DNA of 64,000 bases from Powellomyces hirtus (taxonomy: Eukaryota > Chytridiomycota > Chytridiomycetes > Spizellomycetales > Powellomycetaceae), in contig JAHLKG010000014.1 of NCBI GenBank assembly GCA_025526995.1, positions 731,018-795,017 of the forward strand, in the 5' to 3' direction. Below, piece by piece: positions 2,901-64,000 of this stretch (its first letter is position 1; each line of letters starts with the position of its first letter). A program made the position numbers and the translations under genes. The notes beneath the pieces are model-generated. The model saw only the letters and a program-made list of their open reading frames with translations. It had not been told where the DNA came from and ran no database searches.

Positions 2901-5811
2901 AATGGTAGGCAACGAAACGAGCCCCGGTACACTCGTAGTATGTTAAGACGCCTAACGGGTCGACAGACCCCAGGGTCCAATATGCTACAACGAGCCGTAG
3001 AACGTGCTGCAAAGAAAAGCGCACGAGTGCCTGGTGAATGGACATCACCAAGCAATGGAGGGAACTCTGCCGGTAAAGATACACTGGCAGAGCCAACGCC
3101 TTTAAGTGTTGACGCCAACGAGGGCGATGACGCATTGGAAGGGCGTACCGGAAACATCGACCGACGCAATGGCAAGGTCGATACCCGTCCCCTATCAAGC
3201 AGTACGGATGATCACCGAACGATCAATTACAGTACTCCAGCGGCATTCCCAAGTGGGGAATCAGAGAACACCGTGCATGTCCGCCCGCGTGAGGCGGACG
3301 TGGATAGGATAGATCGGCTTGAGAATTCTCTAGCCCAACTAACGGAAATGCTCCAAATGAAATGGCGCATGGATCAGGATATGAACATCCCGGTCAACCC
3401 TCAGGTACGTACGGCGCAACGGCGCGTACGCACACCATCACCCACTCGCAACGACGGGTTCGCTGCACCGTGGACAGAGTACAATCAGGAGATTGGAGCT
3501 CAACAGGAATACCAACGTTCTCCATTCGAACGCCGCCCTACATCACCGACATCGAGCATACACAGCGTGACGACCAAAATCGTTGACAGTCGAGGTGCGA
3601 AGGCTTTCGTGGATGGAACGCTGAAAGATATTGGATCTTACAACGGGGAAGCCAATATGGTCAAACTTCAAACGTTCATTGACAAGATTGAGACAGTTGT
3701 GAAGTACGAAATGGTTCCGCCCGAGTTTCTCGTGGATTTTGTGGCTACGAAACTCACAGGATGGGCATACACTTGGTGGCAGTCGCTCTCACCAAGTAAA
3801 AGGAACGAAATTACGACGTGGCATGACTTTGAAGACGTTGATTCAGGAAGAACCCAGACCGGTCTTAGGTCCGCCCTTCTGGCGCGGTTTGCGCCACGAA
3901 ACCACACTAGGGATTCGCTGCAGAAATTACGGGAATTGCGTCCCAAAGGCCGCATGGATGAGTACATCACTCAGTTCAACATGCTGGCATTTTCTCTGCC
4001 AAAGACACCGGATTACGTCCTTCAGGATTACTTCATCAACTCGCTAACACCAGACCTTGCAGCCTTGGTTCAGGCTAATGAAGAAAACATAACTGATTTG
4101 AGCAGTTTACAGGCCGCTGCATCCAGGATCACTGCCAACATGGCTAAGAAACCTAGCGGGACCTCAACGGATACGCGACCAGGTGCCGCACACACTGACG
4201 CCTCTAAGAAACAAAAGGGTGGCAAGACCCATGGGGAGAAGTCAACGAACGGCAAGAAGGACAAGGAATCCACTCCATCAAACAAAGGCCAACAACACAA
4301 GTCGGGTTGTTGGGCCTGTGGAGACCCTAAACACCAGACACAGGAGTGCGAAGTGTTAAAGAAGTTCAAATCCGAGATGGAGAAGAACAAGACGAAGCAG
4401 TCGTCTGATGGTGCCGTTAGCACAAATGCTGTGGAAGCATTACACATCTGGGTCCGCCAAGAACAACCGTATGGAGCCCTCATTGACTCTGGCGCTACGG
4501 ACCACATGACACCTCACAAAGCGACCTTGGATCACTCAACCGTGTACAGTGATGTCAGAGCTGTTATGCTTGCTGACAAAACATCACTACCCTCTACAGT
4601 TCGAGGTACGGTACGAGTAGAAGTTAACGACTATCCGAATCTGCTTGAGTTGGGCGGAGTCCTGCATGTGCCAGGATTACGACAAGATCTCGTATCGGTA
4701 GCAAAATGCAACGATCAAGGCGTTGACGTGCTCTTCAAGTCGAATGGAGACGTCATTTTCACACGAGACAGCAAAGATATCGCCAAAGGCGTACGCCGCA
4801 ACAACGCGTATTACCTGCAAGGTACGCTGCTGTCTGAAAGTCTGTGGTCAGATTCAGAAGCATGCACTGTTGAAGTCTCTCCTACACTCGCTCATGCTCG
4901 TCTTGGACACGTTGGCAAAGACGTCCTGGAGAAGATGGCATTGGTTACGGACAATTGGTCCGTAGTGGGAGATCTAAGTGACTTCGAAGATTGTGAAGCC
5001 TGCGTGCTAGAAAAATCCGCTCGTCTTCCATTCTCCCTTGGTAATGTTGAAGCCAGGGAGATCTGTGAGCTGATTCATTCAGACCTACAGGGACCATTTT
5101 GTATCCCTTCACGCTATTCGCTGGAGTTCATTGAACACACATCCAGATACGTGACTGTTTTCCCTATTCCTTCAAAGGACTCAGCAGTCATACTCGAAAA
5201 GTTTCTCATCTACAAGGCTTGGATTGAGAAACAGACTTACCAACACATCAAGATTCTACGTACGGATCGAGGCACCGAATACTTTGGTGAGGTTCTAGAG
5301 TACCTATTGAAAAATGGTATCACTCATCAAAAGTCCGCGGCCTATTCGAGTCAGCAAAACTGGATTGCCGAACGATGGCATCGCACGATGCTGGACAGGG
5401 TCCGCGCCACCTTTGCGGATACAAAACTACCCCGAAGATTCTGGCCTGCTCTACTGGTAGCGGCTGGATACATCTATCCCTTACGTACAACCGCATCAAC
5501 AAGAAGACGCCGCATGAAATACTGTTTGCCGGCGTCGTGATGTCGCCCATCTTTGGCGTATCAGTTGCGTGGCGTATTCCGTTCTAACAAGCAAAGGACG
5601 CGATAAAATGGGGAATCGAGCGAAGAAGGCTTACTTGGTAGGCTATGCTCAACCCACAGGTACCAAGGGGTATCTGGTATGGGATCCTGTCACTGACAAG
5701 GTCGAAGTGTCACGAGACGTGATCTTCAAAGAAGACTTGGGACTTGAACCCAAATATCAGCAGGATCCAGCACATCTTGACCTTCTAGATGAGGAGAGTC
5801 AGGAGGATGAT

Positions 5812-5985
5812 GTCAAATATGCCGTGGAGGCGATCATTGACGAGCGCCGCAGTAAGGCGCACACAAAAGAGTACTTGGTTAGGTGGGAGGGATAACAAGA
5901 ACCTACGTGGGAGTCTCGACTTTCACTACTCGATACGACAGCATTGGATGACTGGGAGAATCGAGTAGCCGCGTACGATGTCGGC
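5812..5985 (+). other. chromodomain-like segment between integrase and RT
   Basis: The translation reads YAVEAIIDERRSKAHTKEYL, then VRWEG, a stop where Tyr is expected, then EPTWE, a run of Leu, and DDWENR. This is the chromodomain pattern: E.I...R......YLVKW.GY....TWEP..L......... . Chromodomains are a hallmark of Ty3/gypsy chromoviruses, where they follow integrase. Here one follows integrase too, but integrase comes before RT as in copia. In family terms it would steer integration to modified histones. The single stop means the segment is dead in this copy. Confidence 0.75.
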
Positions 5986-7762
5986 ACACGACGAAATGAC
6001 CCCATCGCTGCATACGCCGCCCGCACGCGGACTCAAGCAACGATCAACGAAGACGCCATGACATGGAAGCAAGCGATGAAAACCCCTCAGAAGGAGGAAT
6101 TTCTCAAAGCTGCACGCATTGAGTACCAATCCCTGGTAGACAACGGTACATGGGAGCTCACCAAGCGTCCACATAACAAGCGCGTGATCGGAACAACATG
6201 GGTCTTTTGAACGAAGGTCAATCCCGATGGCACCTTTAACAAGTTCAAAGCCAGAACAGTGGCTCAAGGCTTCTCTCAACAACCTGGTCGCGACTTTGGT
6301 GATACATACTCACCTACGCTACCATTCACAGCGCTACGCCTCTTCTTGGCGTATTGTGTCCAGCACGGGCTGGACATCCACAGTATGGACGCTGTCACCG
6401 CCTTCCTTAACAGCAATATTGATAAGGATATCTATATCGAGCAGTTTGAGGGATTCGAAGATCCGGATCACCCCAAAGGCGATTGGGTCCTGAAGCTACT
6501 GAAAGCTCTCTACGGCCTGAAGCAATCACCTCTTCTTTGGTATGAGACCTTGAAGACTGCACTGTTAAAGCTCGGCTACGAAGCGGTTTCTGTATGCCCG
6601 TGTATCTTTTTCAAGTACGCGACAGACGACCGTACACCTCCGTCGAACAACAACTTGGTCCTTATTCTGGTCTTCGTCAACGACCTGCTTATTGCAGCGA
6701 AGGATCCGAAGATTCTGGCGAACAGCAAAATGGAGCTACATTCGAAGTTCAAGTTTACGGAACAAGGTCGCGTCACTAGTCACCTTGGTCTCGTCTACAA
6801 ATATGACTTCGATTCTCCTGTTCGTACCCTCGAAATCTCAAATGTCAAGTACATCGACGACGCTCTCGAACAATTCGGCATGAGCGATTGCCATCCTGTC
6901 TCCACTCCGTACGCCGTGTCAGTGCGTAACCAACAACCGGAGGATTCGACACCATTCACGAATTTAAAAACGTATCAGGAAGCAGTGGGGGTCCTCACTT
7001 GGGCCTCCATCACATGGCGATGGGATATGGCCACTGCAGTTGGTCACGTTGCGCGCTGCGTCGCCGCACCTACCAACTCCGACTGGAACAATGTTAAGCG
7101 CATTTTCCGCTATTTGAAGGGTACCCTCGATTATGCCCTCAAGTTTACATCCGAACGAAATGATCCGCGTGGCTTATGCGTATTCACGGATGCGGATTAT
7201 GCAGGAGAACTCACCGACCGGACGTCCACTACAGGCATTTTGGCCCTTTACAATGGGTTTCCTGTTCTGTGGAAAAGCAGCAAGCAGAAGTGCACCGCCC
7301 AAAGTACGACCGAAGCGCAGTATATAGCTGCCAGTACCGGCCACAACGAAGCCAAATGGCTACGCCAACTCTTGGCGGAAGTTTTGGGACCTCAACCGGA
7401 TTACAAATCTCGACCGGTCCCTTTACATGTCAATAATCAGAGCACAGGAGCCTTGATTCAGTCTAAGGCTATCAACCAACGCACCAAACACATTGACGTT
7501 CGGTACCACGCTATACGCGATTTGTTTGCAAAGCAAATTATCAAAATCATCGACACCAATACGGACGATCAACTGGCGGACATCTTCACGAAGCCTTTCC
7601 CAGCTATCAAACATAAGGACACTGTCCTGAAGATTACGAATGGGACTCATATATTTGATGAACGCATACGCAATGAGGGCGCGCCTACGGAAGCACATCG
7701 AGCTCAAGTGTTACTCGCTGAATATCAGGAGAATTACTCACAACACTGGCTTACCTCGACAC

Positions 7763-8383
7763 CTACACCGCAATTGTGGAACCCGAAGCCATGCCCCCCA
7801 AGGAGGATGGGCCTGCCCCTCCTCCATCATCCTCATCGCTTGAGGGTGAGCGTCGGCTTGGAGAACTCGGTGGTCCCTCCAACTCCTCGGCTTCCCCCTC
7901 CTCCTCCTCTTCCTCATCATTATATGGAGCTTCCCGCTGCAGAATGTCCCACATCCTCTTCACCTCCGCTGCAGACTTCTTGTCCGCAGTCTTCTTCTTC
8001 GCCTGGGCTGTACCCTTGCCCTTCCCAACCGCCAGCTTCCGGCTCCGCTGGTCCTCTAGTATGGACCTCAGTCCATCAAGCATCCCAGTTGCCCGTGCAC
8101 GACCAAGAGGCGTACCAGACCTCACCCGGTCCTTCACCCGGTCTTTGGCCTGCTCAATGTGACGTTCAAGGACCCCTTGACGGTCCTTGCGGTGGAACTG
8201 TCAGGCATACGCCACCGACATTGTTTGAATCTCCGCTCGGGACAACCCCGCAGTGGGTGCGCCTTCCACTGGCGCAGAGGGCACCACTGCCGACGGCACA
8301 GCCGGAGCTGTGGTCGTCGCAGGAGCAGCTGCCGGCGGTCCCGTCTTTCTCGCCGTTTGCTTCGCCTTGCCCGAACCTGACAA
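7763..8383 (-). pseudogene. antisense ORF of copia copy 2, interrupted
   Basis: This is the counterpart of the 206-codon antisense ORF in copy 1. From 8383 it starts with the same MSGSGKAKQTARKTG. It meets an in-frame stop after 60 codons (8201-8203), just before the QFHRKDRQG segment. It then reopens through the RSILED, GKGKGTAQAKKKTADKK and poly-Glu parts to 7763. A few residues are also missing near the KDRVRSG junction. The conserved start, basic middle and acidic tail across both copies support a real element gene that has decayed here. Confidence 0.5.
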
Positions 8384-8565
8384 CTACACCGGCCTATAGT
8401 TAGAGCTTACGCCTCATTTGCACGGATCTCCTAGACGTACTCTAGCCATTCCTCGTATTCTTAAAATGTAATAAATGGGGGTGTTTGGGGGTGTGCGCGG
8501 GGATGTGTAGTTAAAAGTAGATAGAGCAACTCTCGCACTGCCAGACTGACAGGTCTGAGTGGGGG

Positions 8566-10504: not shown

Positions 10505-12229
10505 CTAAGTCGTTGGGGGAACTTCCTTCAAGCACATTCCCTTGCCCTCCTGGCCCCATCCGTCAACGACATTGAGTGCAGCGCCCAAACTCCATCCCGT
10601 CTCCATGCCAGCAATCTTCTTGGCGGTCTTTAGAATCCGATCATCGGGAATGTCGTAGCCGATGCTCAACAGACCGTACATGAAGCCTAGATCTGTACAC
10701 CACTCTGGGTCCTTGAACAGTCCCGCCGCTTCGGCGCCCGCCGTAGTGGCAAGTTCTTTTTCTGTGATTTTTCCAGAGCACACTTTTTCCGCAGCGCCTC
10801 GCAGCTCGCCCACCGTAAATCCCTTCTCAGAAGCGACGAGTCCGAACGGCTCAGCGAATTTGTCGTAAAAGTACGAGAACGCGTAAATATCGTTGTCGGC
10901 AAAGCTGGCGGACAGGGATGGCTGATATTGTCCATCGAACGAGCACGATTTACTCTTGCCCGCCGTGGGAGCCAGACACATGGCCTTGTCAAAGAGATTC
11001 TTCTGAATGAACGCGTGGCACTCTTCGTGCCCGCTGCCAGTGCCTTCCATGTGGTAAACCTGGTCGTCGTCATCGGTATAGGTATCGGTGTGCCCCACCG
11101 CGTAACATGGAAACTTGTTATCAGCAACCCCAGCCTTTTTGATGCGCTTTCGGCCCTGCATGAGGCCATAGCCGTCATACGAGTGTTGATAAAGAACGTA
11201 TTTGTGTTTCCCAAACCTGAGCTCGTACTTGTGGTCTCCTGGTTCCATGGGTTCGGACGAGTGTGGCTCGAATACAATCTGAGTGGATCCTCCACCGAGA
11301 TCCATGATTGCGGCTGTTGGCAAGCGCGGCTCCTGTCCAATCCGCTTCAGCAGGTAGTTGACGGTGATCCACGCGTACACACCTGAAGAAAGGAACGTTA
11401 ACATCACCTACTGAGCAAAGCGGCTGTGGTGCGGGATGCATTGCGCGCTCACCCTCGTCTTTTCCTGGCATGATCTCCACACCGTTCGGCTCCACCATTG
11501 CGAACGGATATTGGGTTTGCAGTTTGCGACGGACCGCCTCGAGGATCTTGTCGCCCTTTCCGTCCTTCAGCATCCGCAATCCCGCGGTTGCTTTGACGGA
11601 GACCGGCGTACACTTCCTCGAGTCCTCTGGGACGTGCTTCAAAGCAATCCGCAGCAAAGGGTCCAGAGAGTCTGCAGCTTCTTCTGGCGTAATGTAGGTG
11701 GGCGAACTGAGTCCCGGTTTCAGCTGCTCGAACACTTCATCTTCCAGACTCGGCGACGGTCCATGACAATGGTTGAAACGGTAAATGTGGATACGCGACC
11801 CCGTCGATCCGGCGTCGATCATCAACCCATACTGGAGCGCCGGCCTGTCTGGATGCGGATTCGGGCATGAATTGCCCCCCAGTGCACTATTCACACTATT
11901 CAGAGCTGATTCAACAACGCGACCAGGTGTCTTCAATCGTTCTGGTTCTGAGTCACCGACCCAGTAAAACAATGCCAAACCGGAACCAACCCGTTCAGCG
12001 TGATAGACTAGAGTCACCGGGAAGGGTTACCTTACCTACCTTGCAGCATCCAGTATGCGCCGACCAGTAGTATTAGCAGGCCAATGAGAAGCTTTCCCAA
12101 CAAGCCAAAGCCCCTCGGCATGCGCAATCCTTTCCTAGGGTGTAACGTGTGGTGAGGGAGAGAGACATGCTTTCCGTAAGACATGTCGTTTGAATCCCGA
12201 CGCTTTGACATCCGGAGCCGATCAGACAT
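10505..12229 (-). CDS. GDA1: Golgi guanosine-diphosphatase / NTPDase (GDA1_CD39 family)
   Basis: It hydrolyses GDP (and probably UDP) to the monophosphate in the Golgi lumen, so that nucleotide-sugar antiporters can keep supplying glycosylation. Three exons (12229-12040, 11947-11453, 11382-10505) join in frame to 520 aa, close to yeast Gda1 (518). Residues about 45-63 form one membrane anchor (LLGKLLIGLLILLVGAYWML) after a basic cytosolic tail, making a type II protein. Apyrase-conserved regions are present: DAGSTGSRIHIY, ATAGLR, GVYAWITVN across an intron, and DLGGGSTQI. Both introns have GT/AG borders (12039-11948 and 11452-11383). It is divergent from ATG5, with starts 198 bp apart. Family assignment is firm; GDPase rather than a broader NTPDase rests on length and topology. 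Confidence 0.93.
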
Positions 12230-39457: not shown

Positions 39458-41647
39458 TTAGAAGTCCTTGGCGAAGGCACCGAGAACTTCCTTGATCTTG
39501 GCGTCCGTGGCGGGGGTGATAGCGTTCTCCTTCTTGATGCTCTCAAAGATTTCGGGAGCGTTGGCCTGCACGTAAGGAATGACGGCAGCCTCAAACTGAG
39601 TGACCTTGTTCACTGGGATCTTGTCCAGGAAACCGTTGACACCTAACAAGTAGCATCTATATCAGCAAACTGCAAGCCATTTAAAGGATGGGAAAGTTTT
39701 GCTCAAAATCTTACCAGCGTAGATAATGACAACCATGTGCTCAACGGACAGGGGAGTGTACTGCTTCTGCTTGAGCAGCTCAGTGAGACGGGCACCACGG
39801 TTCAACAAGAACTGGGTAGAGGCGTCGAGATCGGAACCGAACTGGGCGAAAGCAGCGACTTCACGGTACTGGGCCAAGAACAACTTGAGGGATCCAGCAA
39901 CCTGCTTCATGGCCTTGACCTGAGCGGCGGAACCGACTCGAGACACGGAGAGACCGACGTTGATAGCGGGACGGACACCCTTGAAGAACAGCTCAGCCTC
40001 CAAGAAGATCTGTCCGTCAGTGATGGAAATGACGTTGGTGGGAATGTAGGCAGACACATCTCCACCCTGGGTCTCGATGACGGGGAGAGCCGTCATGGAA
40101 CCTCCACCCTGGGTCTTGTTCATCTTGGCGGCACGCTCGAGGAGACGAGAGTGCAAGTAGAAAACGTCACCGCTGCAAGATGGCAAAAGTGGTCAGGCGG
40201 TGAGATTACTGGCAAAATTACCAAGCACACCAAACTTACGGGTAGGCCTCACGACCGGGAGGACGACGCAGCAGCAGAGACATTTGACGGTAAGCGACGG
40301 CCTGCTTGGACAAATCGTCGTAGATGATCAAAGAGTGCATGCCGTTGTCACGGAAGTACTCTCCCATGGCGGCACCAGAGTAAGGAGCCAAGAACTGCAG
40401 GGGAGCGGCGTCGGAGGCAGTGGCGGCAACGACGATAGAGTACTTGAGGGCGTCTTGTTCGACAAAAACCATGACACATGAGAATTTGGGAAGTGGATTT
40501 TGGACACAAACATGACATTGAACTCACCGTTCTCCTCAAGGGTCTGGACAAACTGGGCGACGGTAGAACGCTTCTGACCGACGGCAACGTAAACGCAGTA
40601 GAGCTTCTTGGACTCGTCAGAGCCAGAGTTCCATCGCTTCTGGTTGAGGATGGTGTCGAGAGCGACAGCAGTCTTTCCGGTTTGACGATCGCCGATAATC
40701 AGCTCACGCTGACCACGACCGATGGGTACCATAGAGTCGATACACTTGATACCGGTCTGCATGGGCTGCTTGACGGACTCACGGGGGATAATACCGGGAG
40801 CCTTGACCTGGACACGCTGACGCTTCACGTCGGTAAGGGGACCCTTTCCGTCAATGGGATTACCGAGGGCATCCACGACACGTCCCAACAATCCACGACC
40901 GACGGCGACGTCGACAATGGCACCGGTACGCTTGACAATGTCACCCTCCTTGATGAGACGATCGTTACCGAAAACGACAACACCGACATTGTCGGCTTCC
41001 AAGTTAAGCGCTTGGCCCTGTTGGAAAAAAGTTTTTTTTTGGGTCAGCATGGATTGCAGGATTCGAAAGGTCGCCTTATCGTTATCGAGGTAGTGGCAAA
41101 AGGGCGGAGGGATTGGTTGCTGCGACATACTTTGAGACCGGAAGAGAATTCCACCATCTCCTCGGCCTGGACGTTCCTCAGACCGTAGACACGGGCAATA
41201 CCGTCTCCGATAGAGAGGACGCGACCAGTCTCCTGGACATCGATGGAGGAGCTGGCTCCGAGGATACGGTCCTCAAGGATGCTGGAGACTTCGGAAGTTC
41301 CTGAAAAAACAGACGAGAGAAATGTTGGTGGCCGGTTGGAAATCACACGAGCGCAAGGGACGGACGTACCAGGCTTGGCGGCCAGGACACGGGTGCTGGT
41401 GGCAAAAGACCGAGCCTATAGCGGCGGAGAGAGGATTCATGTGAGTACGGGGTGGTGGTGGCGGCGGGATCTTGGGCCCGGCGTGGGGAGAAGAGATTCT
41501 CCACGACGATTCATCGTGGACCCGACGGGGATGGGCGGTGGGAGATTGCGCGCAGGGGGGAAGGCGGCGGGTATTGATGCGGGAGTTGATACGTACCAGG
41601 CCGAGACGGGCAATGGGAGCCACGAAGAGGGAGCCGTTTTTCATCAT
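39458..41647 (-). CDS. ATP1: mitochondrial F1Fo ATP synthase subunit alpha
   Basis: The non-catalytic nucleotide-binding subunit of the F1 hexamer in the mitochondrial matrix. Seven exons (41647-41597, 41415-41370, 41300-41131, 41017-40528, 40453-40240, 40172-39715, 39642-39458) join in frame to 537 aa (yeast Atp1 has 545). The N-terminal ~30 residues are a basic, Ser-rich mitochondrial presequence ([23 protein letters not shown]). Then follow [19 protein letters not shown], the Walker [60 protein letters not shown] and [16 protein letters not shown]. The C-terminal helix bundle ends GAFAKDF. It is head-to-tail with the TAF3-like gene and divergent from INTS4. It has more introns near the 5' end, which is common for fungal ATP1. 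Confidence 0.97.
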
Positions 41648-59166: not shown

Positions 59167-61482
59167 CTAATAGATGCGACTGCCAGGGGCTCCTTGCCGG
59201 GATCCTTTGTCCCATTTTCCCATTGACTCATCATATGTTTCTTCATAGACAATAGGCTGATTGCTCCGACCTTCCAAAGGGCCACCTTGCATCAAATTGG
59301 GGTTCGCATTCCAGCCGGTCGTGGTGGATGGATGAAGTTGACCAGGATAAAATTTGACGGGCAATGCGTTACCCCGCTGATTCAAATTAGACGCCAAGAA
59401 TAGTGTGTTCGCAGCAGGTGCATTGAACCGATCCAGTCGTGGAGTAGCAGCATAGTGGAGGTACTGACCCGGCTGTACATCATATCCCAACGGATATATC
59501 GGGTACGGCATTTGGCATATCACCGATTCATGGCCGGCCGCCTGCAGCCAGGAAACTTAGTAGTAGCTTTGGAGACTGTACTTCAAGTGATACTCACCAC
59601 GTTCGGTATGTTACTTCTCGCGTCGTACTTCCGAGTTCGGACTGAAGTCAGGTCTGCACTCTGCGAACCGCGAGGCGAGGGCATGATGTATTGTACTGCC
59701 GGGTTGTATTCATGTCCATATGGAGCGCGTTGAAGTCTGAAATCTCCTGTCTCCCGGTACTGGACACGTATGGTTCTATTGAGCCATGACTGTGCGTTCT
59801 ACCGAAGATATCATGAACGAAAGCCATGATACATCAATATGGAGAAATGGTGTCACCTCTTCTTGGACTGCACTCGTCGTGGATGTCTCATCACTGAACT
59901 TGATAAAAGCAAAGGCAGGACGGGTGTCTTATAGAAATGATGTAAGCGACGGCTACGACATGCGCATGTACATTCTTCAACATACTTGGTCCGCTGGGAT
60001 ATCGGTTGATCAATTGCATCGACTGTATAGTGCCGTATTTGGCGAACTTTTCCTCCAGGAGCTCTCGTGTCACCTCAGCTTGATTGAGCTGACCCACGAA
60101 AATGCTGGAGTGATCAATATCAATGTTGCCCCGGTCGAGGTTTGCAGCCCTAGAGTAGATTTCGTGAATTGACAAGCCGTAAGCCTCCGATGGCAAGCTA
60201 CGCTCACCATTCCGCGACCCATTTCAGATTGGAACGAAGTGACTGGAATTCAACGGTGAGCTCACAAGGTTGCCGTTATGAGCGATAGGGAGTTACCAGG
60301 TATGCTTTAATGGCGTCTTCGCGAAAGCAGAACTTTACAAAGCCGCACCCTTTACTTCGTCCAGTTTGATAATTCTGCAAAATCGTGAAGTCTTCCACGG
60401 GTCCGTATCGCTCTAGAATTTCCATTAGATTCTGCGCAAAGGGGAACGTAAGTTTACATCTTTTTGTGATGTTTAAGCGATAGGTGGTACCCGTTTGACA
60501 TCATTTGCGTCTCGCACATGCTCTCCAATGGTTTTGCCGAACTTTGCGATGAAAAGAGTTCGATTGACCCTTGCTTGCTCAACTCGAATGTACCTCCCGT
60601 GGATGAGCGTATTGTGAGCCTCCGTCAGAGCACGTTTGGCGTCTCTTATATCCTGGGGAACAAGTCACTTGGCATTGCATCCCAATGCGATAAATGGCAC
60701 TTGCGCAACATACCCTAAATTGTACAAATGCATACGGGCGCGACAACCAATCTTTCAAAACTTTCACATGCAAGAGCTTTCCCCACTGTTGGAAATGTAG
60801 AGTTACGCTCCGCTGCAAATCCAAGTCCGACCGTGCGGACGAGAGACTAATGAATATATAGCGGACCAGTCCACTGGATGAGCATGCTTACGCAGGCAAT
60901 TCCTCGTTGTATGGCTTACCTGGCGACAAACAAGCACGCCTGGGGGTGTCCCTTTTCCAGCGCTTCAGCCGGTTGTCTGTCGTCAGTCCGCGCACGCGAG
61001 GTGTGATACTTGGTTTCACTGTCAAGACCAAATCCTGTATCGATCTCTGTGGCTATGGTAAGGTGCGTCCGCTTGAGACGTTAAGCTTGGCCAAGTAACA
61101 TGTGCAGCTCTGTCTTACCGTTCGAGGCGATATGTGTTGATTCTTCAGCGGCGACCGGAAGTTGCCATTCCAAGCCAGACTGTTGGTCTCTGATCTCTAC
61201 CGGGATGCGGGAAAGAGCGTCCTGGCTCTGTTTCCTCGTCCCGTTCTCAAATATTGTGGTACGTTTTGGTGACAGCTCTGCTACGCTGTGCGAGCGGGTC
61301 ATTTGAGCAGCAGCACAACGGCGTCGCAAGACTTCTCCCGGTGACGGAAAGTTAGGCGACTTTGACTGATCAGAGGTGCGTTGACTTGTGCCATCAAGCA
61401 GACCACATCCAAGATCGGGTGTGAGGGATCTGCTGCGAGAAACGGCTCCATTCGCATTGGTTTTTGGCACACCTGCAGCCAT
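59167..61482 (-). CDS. multi-RRM RNA-binding protein, Rim4/Mug28-like
   Basis: Rim4 and Mug28 are meiosis/sporulation RNA-binding proteins. After a Ser/Arg-rich N-terminus (61482-61115, RSRSLTPDLG, RSHSVAELSP), RRM1 is split by an intron. Its first strand is ACLFVAS, then LSSARSDLDLQRSVTLHFQQ, WGKLLHVKVL and RPYAFVQF. It is followed by the linker-motif ALTEAHNTLIHGRYIRVEQA with RVNRTLFIAKFG, the Rim4-type order in which RRM1 leads straight into RRM2. RRM2 continues with ERYGPVEDFTILQNYQTGRS and KGCGFVKFCFREDAIKAYL. RRM3 has SSIFVGQLNQAEVTRELLEE and KYGTIQSMQLI. The C-terminal 120 residues are Pro/Tyr/Asn-rich (59523-59167). At least six introns are present. It is the last complete gene before the telomere on this strand. 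Confidence 0.8.
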
Positions 61483-62265
61483 GATTGCTTATGCCACACA
61501 GATGGGAGAGAAACCAAACCTCCTTTTCTTTCTCGAATATCTTACTTGTAGGGTCTTCAGTCCAAGTCAGTGCAGTCTATGCAACCGCTCCCTGCTCCCC
61601 GGCCCATTCCTTCACAAAAGAAAAACTCGCCCTGGTGGTGACTGCCACTGACTGGCAATGACTGATCAGGATACCTGATGAGCTTTGACTTATCGTAATA
61701 TCCCAGCCACAGTGGCGCAGCGTCAGTGCCACACAAAATTTATATACATCATGAAAGAGGGTTGTAGAGAGGGAACACTCAGTTTACGGAGGCATGACTG
61801 ATATGAGGTGCACAGCCACCTATTTGTGGAGAATCCTTCCTTTTTTCCTGGCATTAACATATGATTCATGGAGGTAAGGGTTGCGCCTAAAATGTAAATT
61901 ATCAGAACGTGCGCCTGGCTGAGAGCTTCCTCCTAGGCGGCGTCGCTCGCTTGTCTCAACAAACTTTGGCACTTGACCAACGATTGCTGGAGCTACAGGG
62001 TTTGCGCCTAAGATCTAAAACAATCAGACTGTGCGTTTGGATGAGGGTTTTGCACCGGCGCTGCCTGCTTGTCTCAACAAGTTATTCAAGTGTGTCAAGA
62101 TTGCATGGGCAAGACGAGGTGTTGACCGGCCGAGGTTTTCGTTTGGAGGTGGCTGTGCACCTCATTATCAGTCTTGCCTCCGTAAGCGAGTCTCAAGGTT
62201 TCGCATAATTTCACGCATTCTCATCGTCGTCCACCCTCTCCAGCGCAGAGAGCGCGCGTTCTGCG
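61483..62265. other. subtelomeric spacer with a diverged ~121-bp duplication
   Basis: Two related units start near 61882 (TTGCGCCTAAAATGTAAATT) and 62002 (TTGCGCCTAAGATCTAAAAC). Both contain CAGA(A/C)YGTGCG, GAG.GYTT and GCTTGTCTCAACAA. They are clearly homologous but differ at many sites. The 99-codon plus ORF over them (61909-62208) comes from the repeat and has no domain. 61640-61880 has nothing I can assign. Confidence 0.55.
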
Positions 62266-63705
62266 ATGTTCACGGAAGTATGGGATGTGGATCACTTTGA
62301 ATCCCTGCGCATGGGAATCAGAAAGGACTGCTGGATTGTTCTACAAGGCGACGACTCTCAAGCAAAGCGCAATCTTTCCCAGGCGCTGAGGGAGCAGGCT
62401 ATACTTCGCGGATCATACCGGTTCTTCTCCGTTGACGCAGACTCCAAGGCTGCAGAGAAACTGGGGGAAGTCGTTAAGCAATTTGGCATAACGCCGCTAT
62501 CGGCGCCGTTCATGGTTGTGGAGATCGGCGACGTTTCTCAAGGGTATGCTGGTAGTGAAGGGGTCGTTCCTTACCCGTAAAATTGACCACATCATCCACA
62601 GCTATGCTATCCGAAACGCCCAGCAAGTCGTCACAAACCTCTACATTTGTTTGGCTCATCGCAGTGCGCTTCTGGTCTTAGGCTACACACCGGAGACGGA
62701 GGAGCAGTCCATTTTCTTAGGCGACATCTCCTACTACCTCACTAACCTAGGTGTCCCTATCATTTGTCGCAACTCCGACATTTTCGCTTATGATGCGGAA
62801 AACACCTTACGTCATAATTTTCTACTGCCCCACCCGGCTAATGGCTACATTTATGTGACGGTGTTGATCAACCCTTCGTGCCCAGAAGTCGATAAGGAGA
62901 TCCGGCGTGTCTTCAGCGTCTGCATGACGGGAAATCCTTATCTGGCTTACGCTGGACACGGGGATGATGAAGGAGACTGGATCCTGCGTGATGATCACTT
63001 CGCGCTCAACGATCTTTGCGACTCTATGGTTGCCGGAAACGCACAAATCACACAGATGACCAGAGACTCGCAATCTGGCGACATCGAACTGAATTGTTGC
63101 TACGGCGCAAGATGGTTGGAAGAATCCCTCTCGTCTCAAACGAATCTGTACCAGAAGGAAGGACACAACTTATTGACTCGGATTCGTTTGCCAGCGGGAC
63201 CCGTACAGCCAATCGAGATAAGTGGTCTCTGGCAAGCCGCAGTGGACAATGGCAACATTCGCGGTGCGCGCGGTTGTCTGCTCCCGCCTCACCCGCTCGG
63301 TACAAAGAATGTAAAAGAGTACGCCGACCCGCAAATCCTGGTATTCCCAGCAAACAGCGGAGACTGTTCGCTGCTCTCCGTCGGGAAGTTCAACCTCTTG
63401 ATTGACGGCGGTCTCTTGTCGCAACTCTGTTGTTGGCCGTACCTGAGACGTTTGCCGACGGCGCTTACGGGGATTCTTGTCTCCCACGTGGATCAGGATC
63501 ACGTCACTGGGATTTTATCGCTTTCGAGGACTATGGCGGAGACTTCGGACACGATTGGATGCGCCCCCTCTATTTCAATTGCCCGGAAGATCTCCGCAGG
63601 GATGGGCAAACCGTTCTGCGGAGCGATCGGAGCATTGGCGAAGGTATAACGCTTGCGCGCAATCATTTGTCAAAACCGCTGCCGGCGCTTGCGTCCGACG
63701 GAGAA
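62266..63705 (+). pseudogene. thioredoxin-like / caspase-like / MBL-fold protein, 3' end lost at telomere
   Basis: Exons 62266-62543 and from 62602 join in frame across a GTATGC/CACAG intron. Residues ~1-90 have a thioredoxin-fold pattern without CXXC (WIVLQGDDSQ ... YRFFSVDADSKAAEKLG ... ITPLSAPFMVVE). Residues ~105-300 look like a caspase-type peptidase: LLVLGY with a His in YAGHGDDEGD (H212) and Cys-Cys in ELNCCYGARW (C258/C259), the His/Cys dyad order. From ~325 begins a metallo-beta-lactamase fold (FPANSGDCSLLSVGKFNLLI then DGG; TGILVSHVDQDHVTG, residues 388-393 metal ligands). Frame 1 stops at 63649, but from 63523 the neighbouring frame reads naturally (FEDYGGDFGHDWMRPLYFNC) and runs without a stop into the telomere. 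So one base is missing near 63521-63525, and the rest of the MBL domain is absent. Confidence 0.72.
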
Positions 63706-64000
63706 GGGTTAGGGTTAGGGTTAGGGTTAGGGTTAGGGTTAGGGTTAGGGTTAGGGTTAGGGTTAGGGTTAGGGTTAGGGTTAGGGTTAGGGTTAGGGTT
63801 AGGGTTAGGGTTAGGGTTAGGGTTAGGGTTAGGGTTAGGGTTAGGGTTAGGGTTAGGGTTAGGGTTAGGGTTAGGGTTAGGGTTAGGGTTAGGGTTAGGG
63901 TTAGGGTTAGGGTTAGGGTTAGGGTTAGGGTTAGGGTTAGGGTTAGGGTTAGGGTTAGGGTTAGGGTTAGGGTTAGGGTTAGGGTTAGGGTTAGGGTTAG
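63706..64000 (+). repeat. telomere, (TTAGGG)n to the window edge
   Basis: About 49 perfect hexamers with no variant, on the G-rich strand pointing to the chromosome end. The junction is abrupt: GACGGAGAA then GGGTTAGGG. There is no intervening telomere-associated satellite, so the telomere abuts a protein-coding gene directly. Confidence 0.99.

Follow-up and report, generated by a model that had tools for sequence, protein, structure and literature searches.

A telomere-truncated gene of Powellomyces hirtus carries the two domains of the MAP1 head, and a Geranomyces relative retains a full set of putative metal motifs

Results

A two-exon gene adjoining a telomere

The window, by which we mean the whole stretch of 64,000 nucleotides analysed here, covers the terminal 64 kb of contig C14 (JAHLKG010000014.1; 795,017 bases) in the Powellomyces hirtus assembly of 29.3 Mb and 60 contigs, and its base 64000 is the last base of the contig. 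Its final feature is a telomere (63709..64000, + strand) made of 48 exact TTAGGG units at 63709-63996 followed by TTAG, in agreement with an earlier note, made from the sequence alone, that placed the gene described below at a chromosome tip. Five-unit TTAGGG arrays gave 839 forward and 71 reverse matches genome-wide; among the matches listed, they sit on C1, C2 and the start of C3. Elsewhere in the window we observed a Copia-type retrotransposon in two open frames (2901-8403, +), with gag, pre-integrase and integrase pieces followed by an RVT_2 reverse transcriptase, and exons of two ordinary housekeeping genes of the arm, a GDA1/CD39 nucleoside phosphatase (10508-11407, -) and an ATP synthase alpha/beta protein (40331-41272, -).

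The gene adjoining the telomere is NCBI DFJ77DRAFT_90092, encoding a protein of 441 aa (P0001) in two exons. Exon 1 (62266..62543, +), which supplies residues 1-92 plus two bases of codon 93, forms a thioredoxin-like N-terminal part and is followed by a 58-nt GT..AG intron (62544..62601, +) and by exon 2, which as annotated (62602..63649, +) extends to the stop codon met past a frame change. The spliced two-exon model is identical letter for letter to the annotated protein, so that the pair of open reading frames noticed earlier is indeed one gene. The thioredoxin-like character of the first 92 residues was put forward too strongly, as it is seen only in sub-threshold matches (Thioredoxin_6, E 0.055; thioredoxin-like, E 0.067).

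Downstream of this part lies a caspase-like or MAPB1_N region (62639..63319, +; residues 106-332), which includes the YAGHGDD block with the candidate catalytic His212 (62948..62968, +), spelled with the same letters in a relative from Geranomyces (P0002), and the NCCYGA block with the candidate catalytic Cys259 (63092..63109, +), which reads NSCYGA in the relative. The first third of a metallo-beta-lactamase (MBL) domain follows (63329..63568, +), with the motifs VFPANSGDC, LLIDGG and SHVDQDH and with matches to PF25281 and to the PADLOC model LmuA (2.2e-8). Its HVDQDH metal-binding motif (63485..63502, +) has H, D, D and H in columns that do not vary among the 29 bacterial rows. The three motifs thus stand in the order that had been reported for them. 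Homology to the MBL domain is resumed in another frame (PLYFNCPE...; 63565..63690, +), as detected by tblastn of P0002, outside the annotated reading.

Just upstream of the gene (61784-62185), an inverted repeat with arms of 38-39 bases, 95% alike and about 325 bases apart, resembles a small hairpin element, for which no other genomic copy was matched. A segment of 305 bases (59335-59639) is 81% identical to a site on C4 and may be a dispersed repeat or an old duplication. Comparison of the 3.3 kb upstream of the gene with the rest of the genome gave short partial matches only.

Two domains in common with the MAP1 head

P0001 matches two Pfam families above their cut-offs: MAPB1_N (PF23415; residues 176-273, 33.3 bits, cut-off 27) and MBL_MAP1B (PF25281; residues 333-431, 45.2 bits, cut-off 37.6). 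Both are also found in P0002 of Geranomyces variabilis (34.2 and 68.9 bits against the same cut-offs), a protein of 638 aa that is 50% identical to P0001 and is named Microtubule-associated protein 1A in its source. MAPB1_N followed by MBL_MAP1B is the head of the animal proteins MAP1A, MAP1B and MAP1S, and this order is the same in both chytrid proteins. The domain order was earlier thought to be undescribed; an orphan fungal architecture is ruled out by the assignment of both domains to the MAP1 head. On these profile matches the P. hirtus protein shares its two domains with the MAP1A/B/S head, and its predicted metal motifs are intact as far as the copy runs. The MAP1 family is a textbook example of neuronal microtubule proteins.

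As annotated, P0002 begins close to where the thioredoxin-like part of P. hirtus ends, and it stops soon after its MBL domain, beyond which Pfam recognises nothing else. The C-terminal heavy- and light-chain parts of MAP1 with the microtubule-binding region are absent from P0002 by Pfam, and the P. hirtus copy is cut. Protein searches, two of which scored only the best 8000 candidates by shared words, returned as relatives P0001, P0002 and a bacterial MBL protein (P0003) only, which leaves two proteins of this kind, P0001 and P0002. No animal MAP1 was matched in a search with MAP1 words of a protein database that may lack animals, and no match was obtained with P0002 in the first scan of genome contigs or with the query A2 in one scan of viral contigs. 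An MBL domain in MAP1A/B/S is already in print (PMC11377751). Among open-access papers we found none that links MAP1 to a caspase fold or gives it an enzymatic ancestry, and a term look-up in the main text of two conflict-system surveys (PMC7159879, PMC8195603) returned no MAP1, lactamase or MBL.

Decay of the P. hirtus copy

When P0002 is compared with the locus by tblastn, a long match in the first frame stops at 63568, and a second match in another frame covers 63565-63690 (44 columns, 43% identity, E 1.6e-5). The jump in the frame of homology is therefore placed between 63565 and 63568, and the telomere stops the homology in the second frame at 63690. As a result of the frame change and the telomere cut, the P0001 locus has the first MBL metal motif and not the later ones, and the P. 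hirtus copy is without the approximately 240 residues that carry these later motifs in P0002. No stretch coding for the missing third of the MBL domain was found elsewhere in the 29.3 Mb assembly. The gene is broken and cannot work as it stands in this assembly, contrary to the working protein supposed at first. DNA, protein and both Pfam model searches of the assembly detected a single copy and no paralogues at other chromosome ends, which speaks against the fast-evolving subtelomeric family suggested before.

The MBL domain and its bacterial kin

The MBL domain of P0002 was scored by the PADLOC models LmuA (98.5 bits, 1e-28; residues 272-599), Avs1a (68 bits) and RTasMBL (55 bits). It reached 93 bits with the NCBIfam model for Avs1a (NF041809), far below the equivalog cut-off of 420, and is thus not an Avs1a equivalog. 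A provisional MAP1B sequence gave 6.1e-7 with RTasMBL and 0.0036 with LmuA. For calibration we ran the LmuA model over 274 gammaproteobacterial genomes and obtained matches in 195 of them. Scores above 60 bits were reached by seven matches, whose open frames span 371-546 aa; among frames of ComEC size the top score was 44.7 bits, in one of 762 aa.

A chytrid-based alignment run against bacteria retrieved 30 loci (L005-L034). In nineteen columns all 29 bacterial rows have the same residue, and P0002 agrees with them in 18, the exception being K389. Among the shared columns are G280-D281, D295, H322-x-D324-x-D326-H327, D504 and H534-H535-G536, which we take from knowledge of the fold to be metal motifs. 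Where at least 85% of the bacterial rows agree (30 columns), P0002 departs from them at four (Y, K, A and H for W, N, D and K). At the positions of D295, D324 and H327, N, G and S/N are found in MAP1S and MAP1B (for MAP1B, again in the provisional sequence). The full metal motif set, as judged from aligned residues, is present in Geranomyces P0002; P. hirtus has the first motifs only, with the metal-motif residues conserved in the part that it retains. Between H-x-D-x-D-H and HHGS, P0002 has a spacing of 213. The corresponding values are 198-215 for the six caspase-paired rows, 212-283 for the subtilase-paired rows (15 of 16; in the remaining one the pattern was not detected) and 109-132 for the seven ComEC-like rows. 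The inter-motif length of P0002 (213 vs 109-132) would suit a candidate gating insertion, which may lie near the active site.

The tree comprised 37 MBL rows: 16 of the 30 bacterial loci, plasmid loci, L083, P0003, P0002 and seven ComEC-like rows that were assigned to ComEC by the length of their open frames. Sixteen rows in all were labelled as subtilase-paired (S8), 14 of them on Pfam or record annotation and two, L019 and L034, on how large the gene upstream is and where it lies. The seven ComEC-like rows are split from the 30 others with support of 100/100, and P0002 is found among the others, where it adjoins the subtilase-paired group (91/83) on a long branch of 3.15. This closeness to S8-paired rows may be partly the effect of selection, since the 30 loci were retrieved through their similarity to A4, of which P0003 is a part. 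When MAP1S, MAP1B and the P. hirtus piece were added, the four MAP1-like rows grouped together (92/97) and were set off from the remaining 36; this tree carries a warning for long branches, and the column fill is 35-40% for the MAP1 rows and 18% for the P. hirtus row, so that the subtilase-paired group is no more than a candidate for the nearest bacterial kin. By tree position, the MBL domain of P0002 falls on the protease-paired (Avs1a/LmuA/CanC) side. These results strengthen the earlier identification of an MBL domain and, as its Geranomyces version is close to the type of protease-paired antiviral nucleases, also provide better support for a link to conflict systems than the letters alone had shown.

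The bacterial neighbourhoods were inspected for partner genes. A subtilase is encoded upstream of the MBL gene in all 13 loci whose upstream neighbour had a Pfam scan (10 + 3), and in the two other loci, scanned downstream instead, the neighbour is a trypsin-like protein (L032) or a STAND protein (L017). In two plasmid matches the annotation has a subtilase adjacent to the MBL gene, and a further one is Avs1a beside Avs1b. In six canu-like loci a caspase precedes the MBL gene, in three-gene arrangements (L083, L091, L093, L095, L097) or in a two-gene one (L096). Six of the seven LmuA loci above 60 bits were read with their flanks. They include L083, a trio of caspase, unknown gene and MBL gene, as well as L084, whose neighbour is of unclear type, and L085-L088, where inspection for motifs gave no sign of a protease. 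On the non-ComEC side of the tree, L098, L099 and L100 have no annotated protease adjoining the MBL gene, and none was recognised in L017. When compared with 369 genomes, the L083 caspase matched its own gene and one weak place.

The subtilase (S8) genes seen directly upstream of an MBL nuclease-like gene among L005-L034, L035 and L037 (13 by Pfam scan, two by annotation) come from alpha-proteobacteria, Acidobacteriota, Bacteroidota and others, and represent a protease-nuclease pair in which the protease is a subtilase. A Bosea plasmid (L096:3755-7383) carries an 838-aa caspase gene directly before the MBL gene, resembling a fusion of canA and canB, and a Bradyrhizobium plasmid (L092:3011-8900) has an M12 metallopeptidase, a CanA-like caspase and a trypsin-like gene in a row.

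The caspase-like region

The His and Cys blocks, YAGHGDD and N(C/S)CYGA, stand in caspase order. Between the two chytrids the His block is identical at 20 of 27 positions, compared with 108 of 227 across the region, and the Cys block at 8 of 15, which is near the regional average. No match to Pfam C14 was found in P0001 or P0002 at E up to 10, in searches where HMMER filters drop most matches above 0.1.

We tried profiles of 14, 7, 21 and 44 bacterial caspases, none of which was decisive. The set of 14 represents 14 of the 15 loci from one search (L052 was left out), and the set of 44 adds to it seven CanA-type caspases, whose long rows were trimmed to 300 residues, and 23 of 27 further loci (the partial L124, L126, L131 and L132 were left out). 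A four-sequence profile aligned to the 44 caspases over 81 columns with His and Cys in register (score 30.15, P 0.001, probability 21%); the best of 224 decoys scored 30.12, nearly the same, and above the 29.07 of the chytrid pair. With the 14 caspases, HHalign gave 25.84 for the chytrid pair and 25.45 for the best of 224 decoys, whereas among single proteins two decoys beat P0002 (25.13) and five beat P0001 (21.24); hmmsearch placed P0002 behind seven decoys (E 1.4) and gave E 12 for P0001. Column shuffles reached the score of the chytrid pair in none of 149 trials with the 14 caspases and none of 150 with the 44. MAP1S and MAP1B alone scored 16.0 against the 44 caspases, and the chytrid region had virtually no match to the seven CanA-type caspases alone (17.5, P 0.17).

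Two AlphaFold models, each from an alignment of two sequences, had pLDDT values of 29.8 and 31.4. In a Foldseek search with the latter, the best 50 of 617 matches were mostly GTPases with no caspase among them, and nothing was found at E <= 0.001. The order of strands and helices in this second model would fit a caspase, which means little at pLDDT 31. The caspase proposed in the earlier note is thus backed by the motifs, their order and the 81-column register, and is weakened by the lack of a C14 match, the decoy-level scores and the low model confidence. Taken together, we consider it plausible, and on balance rather probable, that the region is a caspase-like protease.

Discussion

Proposed mechanism and evolutionary scenario

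We tentatively interpret the chytrid protein as an intact cousin of the MAP1 head, predicted to combine a protease and a gated nuclease in one chain, that is dead in P. hirtus; to this reading we assign a little less than an even chance. The C-terminal MBL domain of the Geranomyces protein would be a metal-dependent nuclease of the Avs1a/LmuA/CanC type, with DNA as its candidate target, and would be kept inactive by the long insertion between its metal motifs. A signal, possibly received by the thioredoxin-like part or by a partner, would set off the N-terminal caspase-like domain, which would then cut or move the MBL gate within the same chain, and the freed nuclease would degrade DNA in a defence or cell-death response. 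In such a scheme the animal MAP1 proteins would have kept the fold as a dead head, and P. hirtus would have lost the module through the frame change and the telomere cut. The protease nature of the front domain, the opening of the gate within one chain, the DNA target and the setting in defence or cell death are the parts of the mechanism that we infer.

A broader scenario, which we regard as rather unlikely, is that MAP1 descends from a single-chain caspase and gated MBL nuclease of immune type that came from bacterial defence via an early eukaryote. The two chytrids would keep, or have kept, the catalytic form, and the loss in P. hirtus would reflect a dispensability like that of conflict genes.

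Alternative explanations

The enzymatic interpretation has to be weighed against two other views of the protein, both of which we judge unlikely. The chief rival is a flagellar role, because MAP1S has been located in the C2b projection of the central apparatus in mouse sperm, and the Chlamydomonas protein FAP312 is called its homologue (PMC12297659). The chytrid protein would then be a scaffold of the MAP1S/FAP312 type in the central apparatus of the zoospore, non-catalytic or vestigially so, with its motifs as ancestral leftovers. Such a role would agree with the membership of both chytrid domains in MAP1-head families and with the grouping of the chytrid MBL rows with MAP1S and MAP1B. Zoospores of chytrids are flagellated, yet the sole copy found in the flagellate P. 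hirtus is broken in this assembly; P0002 moreover retains metal motifs lost in MAP1 and ends soon after its MBL domain, whereas MAP1S has 973 residues in 9ijj. Marginally less probable still is an MBL hydrolase behind a dead or non-caspase alpha/beta domain in which the HG and C motifs arose by chance. The caspase scores near or behind those of decoys, the missing C14 match, the Cys block hardly more conserved than its surroundings, and the low-confidence models with their chance GTPase-like structure matches are all as this explanation predicts, but it leaves unexplained the excess conservation of the His block, the failure of any of 150 column shuffles to attain the profile score, and the His and Cys falling in register with the catalytic sites of caspases in the four-sequence alignment. 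Protease partners are also common among the bacterial MBL kin.

The decay of the P. hirtus copy can itself be questioned. Read support is often poor near telomeric repeats, and the frame change falls about 145 bases or less from the telomeric repeat, as would be expected if the gene were whole in the organism and both the frame change and the telomere junction were errors at the contig end. We consider such an assembly fault improbable, given that the telomere tract consists of 48 exact units, that the same repeat arrays occur on other contigs and that the missing third of the MBL domain was not found elsewhere in the assembly. For the frame change at 63565-63568 taken by itself, an assembly fault fits as well as a real mutation.

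Comparison with known systems

A chytrid relative with intact metal motifs, belonging to the MBL class that bacteria use together with proteases against phages, gives the MAP1 head a likely ancestry and offers an enzyme that can be tested. The chytrid and MAP1 proteins have the VL.NPS, FP..GD and H...D blocks in common; the chytrid proteins keep the YAGHG His and the H-x-D-x-D-H motif, both of which are lost in MAP1B and MAP1S, and the P0002 chain ends soon after the MBL domain without a further Pfam domain, unlike MAP1. With the MBL domain of ComEC/Rec2 the P0002 domain shares the core motifs, but the ComEC-like rows, which have some 80-100 residues fewer between motifs, fall in a clade of their own (100/100). 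It resembles Avs1a, LmuA and RTasMBL in its LmuA score and in 18 of the 19 invariant columns; the partner of these nucleases is trypsin-like (PMC12799240), and P0002 lies far under the NCBIfam cut-off for Avs1a.

A further comparison is with canu (CanABC), an antiphage system of caspase and nuclease. According to Tuck et al. 2025 (PMC12799240), MBL nucleases are held by insertions and become activated when a partner trypsin or caspase cuts them, and canu loci are described there. In canu, as in P0002, a caspase-like part precedes an MBL domain of the non-ComEC side, with similar motif spacing (198-215 vs 213). Canu is composed of two or three bacterial genes, whereas the chytrid protein is one fungal chain without a CanB part and so falls outside the canu gene set; its nearest MBL group in the tree is subtilase-paired rather than caspase-paired, and its caspase region has no CanA profile match. 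With these differences, the chytrid protein would be the eukaryotic equivalent, in one chain, of the caspase and nuclease that are paired in canu.
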